This document shows positions 1-48,927 of a stretch of DNA of 64,000 nucleotides, one piece after another. Source of the DNA: an uncultured Flavobacteriales bacterium (GTDB lineage Bacteria; Bacteroidota; Bacteroidia; Flavobacteriales; Schleiferiaceae). A program made the position numbers and the translations under genes. The first letter of the stretch is position 1. Every line of letters begins with the position of its first letter. Where the stretch lies: positions 558,001 through 622,000 of the forward strand of contig CAJXKC010000001.1 of the NCBI GenBank assembly GCA_913055685.1, written 5' to 3'. The notes under the pieces were generated by a model that was not told the origin of the DNA, did no database searches, and was given only the letters and a program-made list of their open reading frames with translations.

Positions 1-254
1 TTCTCCTTTTCACTTTTAGTGGATAAGTAACTTCCCACACTCATCGCAAAGCCATCGGCAATTAGATTTGCAAAGCCTAAAATAATTACCACTTGGCTAT
101 CCATGGCAGCTCCTGCAGCTCCTGCTACAACAGCAAAAGTAGTTACACTGCCATCGATTCCGCCATAGACAAACTCGCCCAGATATTCCTGAAAGCGATT
201 AATTAAAGGATATTTGCTACCGTGATGTCTTTGTTCTTGTGAGCGAAGATTCAT
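1..254 (-). CDS. VIT1/CCC1-family iron/manganese transporter, N-terminal part
   Basis: Only the first ~84 codons lie in the window; the gene runs off the left edge. Translation from the ATG at 252-254 gives a hydrophilic start followed by [20 protein letters not shown] and then [19 protein letters not shown]. These are hallmark first-helix and second-helix segments of the vacuolar iron transporter (DUF125/CCC1) family, including the conserved FVYGGIDG and the LIADGFAM...YLSTKSE stretch. Family members move Fe2+ or Mn2+ across membranes, in bacteria probably out of the cytoplasm. The gene is divergent from the DUF2490 gene 27 bases away. An FTR1-type iron permease lies 4.5 kb away, so metal handling may be a local theme. 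Family assignment is firm; substrate is inferred. Confidence 0.85.
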
Positions 255-44270: not shown

Positions 44271-45194
44271 ATGAGTTTATTGGTAGTGGGCACAATGGCC
44301 TTCGACGAGTTAATTACCCCCTTTGGTGAATCCGGTAAAATTATCGGAGGATCAGCTACTTACGCTGCATTATCGGCCGCTAATTTTGCAGATGATATTT
44401 CAATCGTTTCTATTATCGGTGAAGATTTTCCTCAGGCTAAACTGGATTTAATGCAATCCAGAGGAATAAATTTAGAAGGAGTTGAGCAGGTAAGTGGGGG
44501 AAAAACCTTTTTCTGGAAGGGTAAGTATCATAATGATATGAATACGCGCGACTCACTCGATACCCAGTTAAATGTTTTAGCCGACTTTGAGCCTATTGTT
44601 CCGGAAAGTGCGCGCGATGCCGAATATTTGATGCTGGGGAACCTTACACCAGCAGTTCAGATGAGTGTGCTAAAGCAAATGACTAAGCGTCCTAAATTGG
44701 TAATCATGGATACCATGAACTTTTGGATGGACGTAGCAATGCCTGAATTAAAAGAGGTATTAAAGGAAGTGGACCTTTTAACCATAAATGATGAAGAAGC
44801 GCGCCAGTTAAGCGGAGAGTTTTCATTGGTAAAGGCGGCTAAGGCGATATTTGAAATGGGTCCACAATACCTAATCATTAAAAAGGGTGAGCACGGAGCG
44901 CTGCTATTCCATAAGGAGGAAGTTTTTTATGCGCCCGCTTTGCCTTTAGAAGAAGTTTTTGATCCAACTGGGGCCGGAGACACCTTCGCGGGCGGCTTTA
45001 TTGGTCACCTTGCCGATAGTGATGAAGTAAGCTTTGAAAGTATGAAGCGAGGCATTATTTACGGTTCGGCGATGGCCTCTTTTTGTGTGGAAAAGTTCGG
45101 CACCCATAGATTAGTAGAAATCGACCGCAAGGATCTTCATAATCGTGTGATGCGCTTCATTGAGCTAACCAATTTCGATATGAAGCTGAAATAA
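44271..45194 (+). CDS. PfkB-family carbohydrate/nucleoside kinase
   Basis: 307 residues. Ribokinase-fold enzyme: N-terminal LLVVGTMAFDELITPFG with GGSATYAALSAANF (substrate lid region) and the C-terminal PfkB signature DPTGAGDTFAGGFIGHLA with the catalytic Asp. The sequence FFWKGKYHNDMNTRDSLDT is typical of a Bacteroidota subgroup annotated as sugar or adenosine kinase; the true substrate is not visible. Single gene with its own terminator. Confidence 0.88.
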   Translation: MSLLVVGTMAFDELITPFGESGKIIGGSATYAALSAANFADDISIVSIIGEDFPQAKLDLMQSRGINLEGVEQVSGGKTFFWKGKYHNDMNTRDSLDTQLNVLADFEPIVPESARDAEYLMLGNLTPAVQMSVLKQMTKRPKLVIMDTMNFWMDVAMPELKEVLKEVDLLTINDEEARQLSGEFSLVKAAKAIFEMGPQYLIIKKGEHGALLFHKEEVFYAPALPLEEVFDPTGAGDTFAGGFIGHLADSDEVSFESMKRGIIYGSAMASFCVEKFGTHRLVEIDRKDLHNRVMRFIELTNFDMKLK

Positions 45195-45262: not shown

Positions 45263-45295
45263 ATTGAAATATCTCACTGAATTTCAATAAATTCG
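45260..45295 (+). promoter_or_regulatory. Promoter with overlapping 11-bp inverted repeat before the ECF sigma gene
   Basis: TTTATTGAAAT (45260-45270) and ATTTCAATAAA (45281-45291) are perfect 11-bp inverted repeats 10 bases apart. A -33-like TTG (45264-45266) lies in the left arm and a -7-like TAAATTCG (45288-45295) begins in the right arm, 21 bases apart. A dimeric regulator bound here would cover the promoter. The alternative is an AT-rich stem-loop trailing the preceding terminator. Confidence 0.5.
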
Positions 45296-45312
45296 GCATC
45301 ATTCAGTAGGGC

Positions 45313-45870
45313 ATGACCATTAATAACCAACTAATACAGGCTTGTATCCGTAAGGAACGTAGGGCTCAGTACGAGCTTTATAAAAGTTCTTATGGGATTC
45401 TTATGGCGGTTTGTTTGCGTTATGAAAGGAATAAGGAAGACGCTGAATTCTTATTGAATAAAGCCTTCCTTAAAATTTTAAATAACCTAGAGTCCTATGC
45501 CCCTGAGGTCCCATTTGAAGCATGGATTCGGAGGATTACCATTAACACGGCAATCGATGAATACCGAAAAGCACAGCGGTCGAAGGTAGATTATGTGGAG
45601 GAACCCATGCAGCTCGCGGCCCTAAGTGAAATGGACTACAATGAGGCGGAGAAGCAATTCGATGCCGAAGAATTAATTGCCCTAGTGCAGCAGTTGCCAC
45701 CGGTGAGTCAGAAGGTTTTTAATCTCTACATTATCGATGGCTACAATCATAAAGAAATTGCCGAGCAGCTCGGGATGAGTGAAGGCACAAGCAAATGGCA
45801 TTTAAGCAGTGCCCGCAAGAAATTGCAAGAGATGATGCGTAAGAAAATGGATAACGATAACGTAGCTTAA
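45313..45870 (+). CDS. ECF-type RNA polymerase sigma factor
   Basis: 185 residues. Region 2 is visible as YELYKSSYGILMAVCLRYER...EAFLKILNNLESY-type sequence with AWIRRITINTAIDEYRK. Region 4 ends with the helix-turn-helix FNLYIIDGYNHKEIAEQLGMSEGTSKWHLSSARKKLQ. The linker lacks extra domains. The next gene, 2 bases on, looks like its membrane-spanning anti-sigma factor. Bacteroidota have many such sigma/anti-sigma pairs that react to envelope or surface signals. The regulon is unknown. Confidence 0.92.
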   Translation: MTINNQLIQACIRKERRAQYELYKSSYGILMAVCLRYERNKEDAEFLLNKAFLKILNNLESYAPEVPFEAWIRRITINTAIDEYRKAQRSKVDYVEEPMQLAALSEMDYNEAEKQFDAEELIALVQQLPPVSQKVFNLYIIDGYNHKEIAEQLGMSEGTSKWHLSSARKKLQEMMRKKMDNDNVA

Positions 45871-45872
45871 TC

Positions 45873-47297
45873 ATGACAGAGAAAGAGTTACGCTTATTAT
45901 TTGAACAAAAAATGGCCGATTGGGAGATTCCTTTCAGCGAAGCCAATTGGGAGGCTTTTGTTCAAATGCAGGATCCATCTGAACCCCTATCGGAACAGGA
46001 ATACCGCAAACTCTTTAATGATAAACTTAAAGAAGCGTCTTTCCCTTTTAACCCAGCGGCTTGGGAGGAAATGGAAGCTCAACTGGGCCCCGAAGGTGGG
46101 ATGAACGATGAGGAAATGCGTCGACTCTTTGACGCGAAAGTGACTCAAGGTTCATTTGCTTTTAATGAAGACAATTGGAACCGCATGGAGCATTTGCTCG
46201 ACGAGCAAGAGCAACGACCATTAGCCTATTACTGGCGATCGGTAGCGGCAATTTTACTATTGGCCTTGTCTTCTAGCCTATTATGGTCACCAAGCTCAAC
46301 TCCTCAACCTGGTATAGCGCCTGTTTATGAGTCACGTACCGGATTAGAGTCACCTCTTGATAAGAAGGCAGAACCTAAAGCAGCGGAGGGCAGTCCTGCT
46401 TCGCTTGACGCCGAAATGCCTCAGTCGAGTGAGGTAGCAACAAACAACCTTGTGAAAGGGAGTACCGCTCCCCAAGCTCAGCAGGCCCCGTCAAGCAATC
46501 AAAATAGGCTTGCACAAGAGCCCAGCTCAATTGCCGACCTTAATACCAAAGAAGTGGAGCCCAGTGTAGTGCTTCCAAGTCTGAGCACTTTAGGAATAAA
46601 GTCTTTGAGCTTATTCACGGAACCGCGCTTGGCTTTAATGCTTAGCGAGAAGTCCGAACTACCCCCAGTAAGTAAAAAGGAGCCCTATATCCCGCTAAAT
46701 TATTCGAGTTTATATGCGGTAGGCGGGCCCAATATCAGCCCTAGCTTTAATGGTCAATGGTCCTCTGGTTACAATGCCGGTTTGGTTTATGAATACAGTT
46801 TAGATGGAGTCTCATCCTTTGAAATAGGCCTTATTTACAATCAGGCGGCAATTGGAATCGAGACTATGAGTGATAGCACCTTCTTTGGTTTAGGAAGAAC
46901 CAATGTGAATACCCATCGTCATTATAAGTCTATTGCCAGCCTACGTGTACCTTTTAGCTATAAACTAAAACTTGCGTCGAAACATTCTTTAAATGTAGGG
47001 ATGTACAGCGACCTTAATCTTAGGGTGCGCATGGATGAGACGGTAAGTACTACTATTTTTAAACAGGACCCTAAGGTTGAAAACCGCAGTTTTAACCAGT
47101 CGATGGATAGCTTTGAAGCACTAAGCTTTGGTGCTAGCTTCTCTTATGCTTATCAGTATAATGATCGATTGTCTTTGGGCCTGACCTACACTCGGGGCCT
47201 TTCAGATATTACTAAGGATGATGCTTTTGGATTTGAGTCGGATCACCGACCCGAGCAGCTTAGCCTAGATCTGCGGTACCGAATATTTAAGCGATGA
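45873..47297 (+). CDS. Dual-membrane-type anti-sigma factor: triplicated cytoplasmic segment, membrane helix, outer-membrane beta-barrel
   Basis: 474 residues. Residues 3-32, 41-71 and 79-109 are three tandem copies of a ~30-residue unit LFxxKxxxxxFxFxxxxWxxM, the type of N-terminal segment found in Bacteroidota anti-sigma factors. One membrane helix follows (about 121-138, SVAAILLLALSSSLLW), then a Pro/Ser/Gln-rich linker (140-230). The C-terminal ~235 residues are a PorT-like barrel with alternating strands and a final LSLDLRYRIFKR. The layout matches the Dma anti-sigma family of Bacteroides thetaiotaomicron, thought to span both membranes. The triple repeat is unusual. It abuts the sigma gene and overlaps the lipoprotein gene by 4 bases. 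Confidence 0.75.
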   Translation: MTEKELRLLFEQKMADWEIPFSEANWEAFVQMQDPSEPLSEQEYRKLFNDKLKEASFPFNPAAWEEMEAQLGPEGGMNDEEMRRLFDAKVTQGSFAFNEDNWNRMEHLLDEQEQRPLAYYWRSVAAILLLALSSSLLWSPSSTPQPGIAPVYESRTGLESPLDKKAEPKAAEGSPASLDAEMPQSSEVATNNLVKGSTAPQAQQAPSSNQNRLAQEPSSIADLNTKEVEPSVVLPSLSTLGIKSLSLFTEPRLALMLSEKSELPPVSKKEPYIPLNYSSLYAVGGPNISPSFNGQWSSGYNAGLVYEYSLDGVSSFEIGLIYNQAAIGIETMSDSTFFGLGRTNVNTHRHYKSIASLRVPFSYKLKLASKHSLNVGMYSDLNLRVRMDETVSTTIFKQDPKVENRSFNQSMDSFEALSFGASFSYAYQYNDRLSLGLTYTRGLSDITKDDAFGFESDHRPEQLSLDLRYRIFKR

Positions 47298-48412
47298 TGA
47301 GAAGGACGAATGTTGTTTGGGCAGTTTTAATATTACTACTCTGGTCTTGCAGTAAAGAGGCGGGAGTAGAAGAAAACCACTATAGCGATCAACCCCTATT
47401 TTACCTCAATGCGGTAGTTGATGGGCTACCCATAAGCCTTAAAGCAGGTGAAAACCAATACCAAATGTATACGGGGTACACGCTGCAAGACTCCGTGCTG
47501 CACATGCAAGGGGTGCTAGCAAGCGATAGTCCGAACTTTAGAAATGCCTTTTATATAGATCTACGTGCGGCTGAATTAGTAGCGAATTTGAATCAGCTTA
47601 CTGCTTCACGTACTTTCACCGAAGGCCCCCTTCCCCTTGCTGATCCGAGTGGCTTGGTGGTAAAACCCGATCATTACGATTACCGCTTCTTCGCAGATAA
47701 TGTGAACGGCCACATTCCTACCATGTGGGCGATTGAAGATACTTCCTATTACGGCGATTCTTGTGCCCTTTTAGGTTTAGACGCTACTAGTAAAACGCAC
47801 ATAGAGGTAGTGATGACCAGCACCGGCCCGCTTTCCTGTACGCCGAGCGTTAAACATATTATTAAAACGCATCAAGATTGTAAAGGCGAGTTGCATATCC
47901 TGCAAAACTCGAACAGCGGACTTATCGCTGAAGCCAGAGCTCGCTTGGGTAAATTGCGTAAAGTGGATTGGTATTTAGGCGGACAAAAAGTTTCTTCGGG
48001 ATTAAATTTTAATTACTCCCCCTTGGTTTACCAACCGAGCTATCTCATTCGGGCAGAATTAGAGTTTGAATCTGGCTGTACCGAAAGCATTGAAAAGCTG
48101 GTTCTTCCTGGCGGTTCTACTTGTGATATTAATATCGATTATTTAAAGACTAAACATCGCGTAGCGAACCCACATAATCTCAAAACGGTGGAAATCCGCT
48201 ATTACGATGCACAGGGTAAGATGTATAGTTCTTGGTATCCAAAGGCAGAGGGAAGCTTTAGCATTGAGTCTTACAATAGCTATCACGATGCCAACTCCAG
48301 TCAGCCGCACCAAAGATTTAGCTTTAGTGGAGAAGCGATCTTAAAAAGTGCCGATGGAGCGAGCATTAAGCTCAACAGTATCTTTGGGATATTTGCTCTA
48401 GCCCACCCTTAG
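47294..48412 (+). CDS. Lipoprotein of the sigma/anti-sigma cassette
   Basis: 372 residues. A signal segment VVWAVLILLLWSC places the lipidated Cys near residue 19, followed by KEAGVEE. The mature protein is beta-rich with several cysteines (GDSCALLG, GPLSCTPS, HQDCKGE, GSTCDINI) that could form disulfides. The middle, WYLGGQKVSSGLNFNYSPLVYQPSYLIRAELEFESGCTES, resembles a PKD/Ig-like fold. The start overlaps the anti-sigma gene by 4 bases (ATGA), so it belongs to the cassette and may interact with the barrel at the outer membrane. Not recognised otherwise. Confidence 0.7.
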   Translation: MMRRTNVVWAVLILLLWSCSKEAGVEENHYSDQPLFYLNAVVDGLPISLKAGENQYQMYTGYTLQDSVLHMQGVLASDSPNFRNAFYIDLRAAELVANLNQLTASRTFTEGPLPLADPSGLVVKPDHYDYRFFADNVNGHIPTMWAIEDTSYYGDSCALLGLDATSKTHIEVVMTSTGPLSCTPSVKHIIKTHQDCKGELHILQNSNSGLIAEARARLGKLRKVDWYLGGQKVSSGLNFNYSPLVYQPSYLIRAELEFESGCTESIEKLVLPGGSTCDINIDYLKTKHRVANPHNLKTVEIRYYDAQGKMYSSWYPKAEGSFSIESYNSYHDANSSQPHQRFSFSGEAILKSADGASIKLNSIFGIFALAHP

Positions 48413-48927
48413 GCTTCGAACTCGATAAGTACCTGATTTTTTTCAACTGCCTCGCCTTCTTGGCAAGGTACAGCCTTGATTACCGCATCATTTTCGGCTT
48501 TCAGAACGTTTTCCATTTTCATCGCCTCAAGCACAATTAAGGGCTGTCCTTTTTTGATGTTGTCTCCTGCTTTTACTTTTATATCTAAAACCAAACCCGG
48601 CATGGGGGCTTTGAGGTCGTTGAGTGCCGAAGCAGCGAGGTGTTCCATGCCCAGATCTTTCAGCAATAGGTCAAATCGGTCGGCTGCCTTTACTGCGATT
48701 ATCTGATCGTTAATTTCTAGGCTAAACTCTTTGCTTTCATAATCCGCTTCTAAAACGTGGATGCGGTAACTTTTTTGCTGATGAATTAGGTGAAAACCCT
48801 TCTCGGCATTGCCCTTAATATCGAGGCTCAGAGACTCGCCGTTTAAACTAAGTTTCTTGCCTTGTTCGCTTACTTCAACGGGGTAAGCTTTTTCATTAAT
48901 CTCGATTTGATAAGATTGGCTAGACAT
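48409..48927 (-). CDS. Biotinyl carrier protein of an acyl-CoA carboxylase
   Basis: 172 residues. The C-terminal ~75 residues form a biotinyl domain with the lysine to be biotinylated, Lys137 in EAMKMEN, preceded by APMPGLVLDIKVKAGDNIKKG. The N-terminal ~95 residues are a beta-rich domain as in the carrier part of propionyl/methylcrotonyl-CoA carboxylases and unlike AccB. The carboxylase subunits are not adjacent, so the partner complex is unknown. Its stop interlocks by 4 bases with the convergent lipoprotein gene. Confidence 0.88.
   Translation of the reverse strand: MSSQSYQIEINEKAYPVEVSEQGKKLSLNGESLSLDIKGNAEKGFHLIHQQKSYRIHVLEADYESKEFSLEINDQIIAVKAADRFDLLLKDLGMEHLAASALNDLKAPMPGLVLDIKVKAGDNIKKGQPLIVLEAMKMENVLKAENDAVIKAVPCQEGEAVEKNQVLIEFEA

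Follow-up and report, generated by a model that had tools for sequence, protein, structure and literature searches.

We describe here a three-gene cassette from an uncultured Flavobacteriales bacterium, in which a predicted dual-membrane anti-sigma factor carries three tandem copies of its short N-terminal unit, and we find that such arrays recur elsewhere in the same class. Anti-sigma domains are usually regarded as one per chain, and a single unit is the usual state in our sample too, whereas 20 of 145 unit-bearing proteins, spread over six families, have from two to about six units in tandem. The window, by which we mean the whole 64,000-nucleotide stretch of DNA that was analysed and to which all coordinates refer, encodes an ECF sigma factor, an anti-sigma/barrel protein and a lipoprotein, with the coordinates and strands of all three genes confirmed as follows.

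45313..45870, plus strand: ECF sigma factor gene, 185 aa (Sigma70_r2, Sigma70_r4_2 and TIGR02937 all above cut-off)
45873..47297, plus strand: gene for the putative dual-membrane anti-sigma/barrel protein, 474 aa (Pfam, alignment and structure model)
45873..45986, plus strand: putative anti-sigma unit 1, residues 1-38 (26.1 bits, independent single-unit HMM)
45987..46100, plus strand: putative anti-sigma unit 2, residues 39-76 (39.5 bits, same HMM)
46101..46214, plus strand: putative anti-sigma unit 3, membrane-proximal, residues 77-114 (38.4 bits, same HMM)
46218..46295, plus strand: single predicted TM helix, residues ~116-141 (model helix 116-134; hydropathy window 123-141)
46296..46697, plus strand: predicted disordered polar tether, residues ~142-275 (low pLDDT; length 130-168 aa in 21 aligned proteins)
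46698..47294, plus strand: predicted outer-membrane beta-barrel domain, residues 276-474 (PF13568; pLDDT 54-89 by block; OmpA-like, Z 16.9)
47294..48412, plus strand: lipoprotein gene, 372 aa (Cys19 invariant; family downstream in 62/123 loci)

The ATG of the lipoprotein gene (47294) and the TGA of the anti-sigma gene (47295-47297) form a 4-nt overlap. The sigma protein exceeds the cut-offs of both Pfam sigma-70 domains, and among the NCBIfam matches listed for it the general sigma70-ECF model (TIGR02937) alone does so. The flanking genes at 44271-45194 and 48409-48927 are, by the look of their sequences, presumably sugar-kinase-like and biotin-carrier-like, and neighbours of these two kinds recur around the cassette in L030, L031 and L032.

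The units of the 474-aa protein start at residues 1, 39 and 77, with a period of 38 aa. To avoid circularity, the HMM used to score them drew on 12 single-unit proteins from other genera, and it finds all three at the scores listed above, whereas shuffling the N-terminal 115 residues 2000 times gave at most 10.1 bits. Unit 1 is diverged and scores lowest of the three. The core of the unit consists of LFxxK, a short loop, N(P) and W, with the F, K and W invariant in 17 segments; Pfam recognised no family in the N-terminus. The AlphaFold2 model gives each unit two helices at low confidence (3-16 and 23-33 in unit 1, 41-54 and 62-70 in unit 2, 79-91 and 99-114 in unit 3; pLDDT 35-59 by block), and by analogy with the systems considered below the unit is probably a sigma-factor-binding module.

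The same full-chain model, computed from a four-sequence alignment (mean pLDDT 51.4, pTM 0.42), places one TM helix after the units, in agreement with hydropathy. The linker that follows has 134 residues, 67% of which are P/S/T/N/Q/E/D/A/G, and its pLDDT is 23-36 by ten-residue block from residue 141 to 270; the 21 proteins in which its length was compared include the window protein, and the tether sequence is hardly alignable among them. The C-terminal domain matches Pfam OMP_b-brl_2 at 34.9 bits (cut-off 27), and residues 268-474 of the model align with OmpA over 169 residues at an rmsd of 3.4 A (Foldseek E 1.3e-7); a sequence search for solved relatives of the barrel protein yielded nothing convincing (best E 0.0086). 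An earlier note, made from the letters of the DNA, had read the protein as three tandem units, one membrane helix, a Pro/Ser-rich linker and an outer-membrane-type barrel in a layout recalling Dma/Das pairs. The independent HMM bears out the units, and full-chain prediction agrees with the note on the helix, the barrel and the Dma-like order of TM, tether and barrel beside an ECF sigma gene; the linker is likewise present, although its composition is better termed polar and disordered than Pro/Ser-rich.

Matches at E <= 1e-5 were found in 26 of the 60 genomes of the window family, its own included, leaving 34 without, and the sigma gene precedes the anti-sigma gene in all 21 family loci examined, again counting the window. 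All seven genomes found for the window genus carry arrays, with three units in five of them and four in G029 and G054. The matches in other genera come from 19 genomes, of which 18 have a single-unit protein and one (G032) a protein that starts at a contig edge and so lacks its N-terminus. The conserved Trp is present in 23/23 units of the seven genus proteins; LFxxK was used to locate these units, so its presence there is by construction. Compared between species, the five three-unit proteins average 70, 67 and 55% identity for units in matching positions, figures raised by the close relationship of G015 and G048, whereas units within one protein are on average 33-41% identical. Since the units retain identity by position, we infer that the triplication predates these species and that each unit has persisted, so that by sequence comparison the window array is an old one that has been preserved. 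The second unit of the four-unit proteins resembles unit 2 at its start and unit 1 at its end, as would be expected of an in-register unequal crossover, and it groups with unit 1 in a unit tree that, being built from short sequences, is weakly resolved. For the one pair compared (G015 and G048, NG86), dN/dS is ~0.06 for the units (dN 0.026, dS 0.40), 0.14 for the TM plus linker (dN 0.080, dS 0.55) and 0.02 for the barrel (dN 0.019, dS 0.80).

Surveys covering the window's own family, order and class show how far the unit extends. Unit profile A1 matches 17/148 genomes of the order and 99/395 of the class (own genome counted in both), and 145 distinct unit-bearing ORFs were gathered from the family, order and class searches, not counting three class-search rows (G349:C426, the second G411 row and G226). 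The profile was seeded with window-family proteins and distant relatives are therefore undersampled, so that the predominance of one unit holds for this sample. A sigma-like ORF lies directly upstream in 143/145 loci; at the two exceptions (L146 and L199) the unit-bearing ORF overlaps the matching upstream ORF beyond the limit set, probably because start codons were set too early. The length from first unit to TM, measurable in 143 of the 145, is quantised in steps of ~37 aa, with 123 proteins falling below 50 aa and 20 reaching at least 76 aa, and therefore 20 proteins carry arrays. Seven of these belong to the window genus, five to f27 (four or five units) and four to f17 (four to about six, diverged); two-unit arrays occur twice in f14 and once each in f5 and f56. 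A lenient N-terminal recount raised the multi-unit count from 18/145 to 20/145 because of two f17 proteins with diverged units. The f17 proteins L138, L155, L188 and L204 have about four to six units, some under profile thresholds, and the figure of about six for L138 is a reading of the sequence by eye, the automated count being 7 stretches, some of 8-9 residues.

A sigma tree was built with 139 rows, six of the 145 loci having a sigma row identical to another or lacking a sigma ORF inside the limits set. At least six changes of the multi-unit label are needed on it, at least three of them forced by starred branches, and none of 500 shuffles was as low; with the labels used before the recount there were seven changes, four forced. 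The tree was made quickly, has SH-aLRT values as its only support and came with long-branch warnings, and such changes cannot separate gain from loss. One f27 array is attached to a PorP/SprF-type barrel (83.3 bits, cut-off 22.3), and the f17 array L138 has a sub-threshold OMP_b-brl_2 match (25 bits, cut-off 27). The earlier note had paired the window protein with the sigma factor encoded before it, and the gene order across the class agrees; it had also singled out the triplication as an unfamiliar feature, but a search that counted repeats places it in all seven proteins of the genus and finds arrays in five other families.

The layout of the protein and its sigma/anti-sigma logic are already known. 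In the available parts of the sources, Dma2 is an anti-sigma factor of this layout that represses the neighbouring sigma factor Das2, its loss raising das2 and bt_1555-1557 (PMC13088901), and in Bacteroides fragilis and Phocaeicola vulgatus a Reo-type anti-sigma factor represses its neighbour EcfO, with ecfO-reo induced by the toxin BcpT or by bacteroidetocin A, a BamA inhibitor (PMC9308784, PMC13114119). As far as those texts go, Dma and Reo are described as spanning the envelope, Reo across all five compartments (PMC13088901, PMC9308784, PMC13114119). The window protein is predicted to share with Dma/Das an N-terminal cytoplasmic domain, one TM, a long disordered tether and a C-terminal barrel next to an adjacent ECF sigma factor, and with EcfO/Reo, as described in the same partial texts, an anti-sigma factor with a C-terminal outer-membrane barrel encoded downstream of the ECF sigma gene (PMC9308784, PMC13114119). 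Two further marks of the Dma/Reo type are a sigma factor of group ECF21 and an occurrence confined to Bacteroidota. The window protein would differ from Dma, as described, in the three to four tandem N-terminal units of its genus, and the unit is tentatively equated with the anti-sigma domains of Dma1, Dma2 and Reo by position and gene context. Two short helices per unit, a low-confidence prediction, may recall class II anti-sigma factors, in which a two-helix module wraps sigma2 and sigma4; the two helices of one of them, CnrY, wrap CnrH (PMC7406223). Unlike the window protein, CnrY is described there with two helices and no repeated modules. Our literature search for repeated or tandem anti-sigma domains found no description, although the founding 2024 PNAS paper lay outside its scope and the result is no proof of absence. 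What appears new, judged by that search, is that the module has been multiplied in tandem and that this has happened recurrently.

We propose, with moderate confidence, that the three genes form a Dma/Reo-type circuit for envelope stress in which tandem modules multiply the sigma sites per chain. The gene order, the units and their retention, the predicted barrel and the tether length are read directly from these loci and models; sigma binding, dual-membrane topology and stress release are carried over from the published systems, and the stress signal and regulon from other genera. With its short two-helix modules the anti-sigma chain would tie the co-encoded ECF sigma factor to the inner membrane; it would cross that membrane with one helix, span the periplasm with the disordered tether and be anchored in the outer membrane by the OmpA-like barrel, which by analogy may report on that membrane. 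Misassembly, poor retention or some other change of the barrel would cause the cytoplasmic part to be lost and sigma to be released, and the freed sigma would transcribe its targets, probably its own operon and hence the lipoprotein gene; this autoregulation and a part for the lipoprotein are what we infer for the present cassette. In the window genus the module would have been multiplied to three or four, most likely with one sigma site per unit, a stoichiometry that is our own supposition, so that a single outer-membrane anchor could silence more sigma and set a higher, sharper threshold for release. Only tentatively would we extend this to the suggestion that Bacteroidota repeatedly array a ~37-residue sigma-binding module, two to ~six at a time, onto different outer-membrane barrels, with array length an evolvable dial for the amount of sigma held and the abruptness of its release.

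Several other readings of the array are plausible to differing degrees. Most simply the repeated units would multiply sigma sites, but one sigma could be bound at a time and be recaptured by the extra units, which would slow its escape and leave the stoichiometry unchanged; the core motif common to all units and the roughly equal expression plausible for adjacent sigma and anti-sigma genes fit this, and we consider it possible if rather unlikely. We think it improbable that the membrane-proximal unit alone binds sigma, the others contacting another cytoplasmic partner or acting as spacers: the spacing from unit 3 to the TM is about that of the relatives' single units, but between species unit 3 is the least conserved of the three, and units 1 and 2 have also kept the Trp. 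Multiplied sigma sites also seem to us much better founded than a hub at which each unit binds a different sigma factor, as the earlier note had contemplated. The low identity of units within a protein and their position-specific identity between species would suit such a hub, as would the 11 ECF-like matches (E <= 0.001, window sigma included) in the window's own genome, and FpvR of Pseudomonas, one anti-sigma factor for two sigmas, is a precedent in the part of the source available (PMC4256889). However, sigma matches at E <= 1e-10 number 7-8 in four multi-unit genomes and 4-11 in eight single-unit ones, and all 12 genomes have one close orthologue of the window sigma (at least 57% identity), with no further match above 46%. 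Arrays are thus not accompanied by an excess of sigma paralogues, which counts against several different clients, and other sigma/anti-sigma cassettes in the same genome plausibly serve other sigmas; we regard the hub as very unlikely.

A further alternative concerns topology. The chain might be cleaved after export, so that the barrel stays in the outer membrane while regulation falls to an ordinary anti-sigma stump in the inner membrane, and a split arrangement of this kind does exist in the same genome (L231). The tether, however, is at least 130 aa in all 21 aligned proteins, as expected for spanning the periplasm, and the accessible descriptions of Dma and Reo have them spanning (PMC13088901, PMC13114119), so that we give a cut chain little credence beside the intact, envelope-spanning one. 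If each unit does hold a sigma factor, the natural one-, two-, three-, four- and more-unit proteins would form a series relating stoichiometry to the threshold of a sigma switch, nearly all of them beside a sigma gene, and would also show how a signal from the outer membrane reaches the cytoplasm along one chain.

The lipoprotein gene is a conserved third member of the cassette. Its family lies 3' of the anti-sigma gene in 19/21 window-family loci, the window included (missing for L040 and L046), and a lipobox-like Cys, residue 19, is found in every one of the 19 aligned sequences, that of the window among them. Across the class, a profile made from the family alignment only places it directly downstream in 62 of the 123 loci where the sequence available on that side exceeds 500 nt, 38 of the 62 being outside the window family, so that about half of the unit-bearing loci are without it; iterating the profile gives 66/123. 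The overlapping lipoprotein gene that the earlier note had found unfamiliar is thus widespread, and the idea that it is a peculiarity of the window locus was rejected. The family is present at all eleven arrays of f1, f5, f14 and f56 and at 0/9 of those of f27 and f17, four f27 loci having another lipoprotein-like ORF in the downstream position. The three-gene layout has a published parallel in the Dma2 operon, which also has three genes in the available text (PMC13088901), but the third gene differs: BT_1557 is annotated DUF4943, and 0/19 lipoprotein members match that family. The Reo regulon, from what could be consulted of its description, has three NigD lipoproteins (PMC13114119), whereas the family of the window lipoprotein has no NigD match and the window gene overlaps the anti-sigma gene. 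Both identities were rejected, since the seven Pfam families listed at E <= 0.1 for the 19 members include neither; PKD models match 3/19 members and Big_7 4/19, and Pfam recognised no family in the window lipoprotein itself. Its model is beta-rich (pLDDT 64.6), with Ig/PKD-like matches of middling score over ~126-273; Foldseek gave no match at E <= 0.001, the best match of a second structural look was also middling (Z 8.8, 135 aligned, 4.3 A), and a sequence search for solved relatives gave nothing convincing (best E 0.095). A conserved lipoprotein partner may also help to show what the barrel senses.

The regions upstream of the sigma genes did not establish a conserved promoter indicative of autoregulation. 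A TAAATTAG-like element is found repeatedly 5' of many sigma genes, including those of many family members, and a AATAAATTCGGC element lies at ~45280-45300, 5' of the window sigma gene; we take these elements to resemble the Bacteroidota housekeeping -7 promoter element.

Four more sigma/anti-sigma cassettes were observed in the window's own genome. L234:761-2684 (G000:C2:108200-112500) encodes a sigma factor and a 459-aa anti-sigma factor that has by eye two diverged tandem units before its TM, with a unit profile score at chance level and no Pfam barrel, followed by a 211-aa ORF with a lipobox-like start. At L232:744-2740 and L233:669-2767 the sigma gene precedes that of a similarly organised protein whose one unit, recognised by profile at 1e-5 in L233 and by eye in L232, is degenerate; a sub-threshold OMP_b-brl_2 match is present in L232 only. 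L231:1590-4228 is the split version, in which the sigma gene is followed first by a 246-aa protein with a unit and a TM, for which Pfam names no barrel, and then by a separate 433-aa OMP_b-brl_2 barrel protein.
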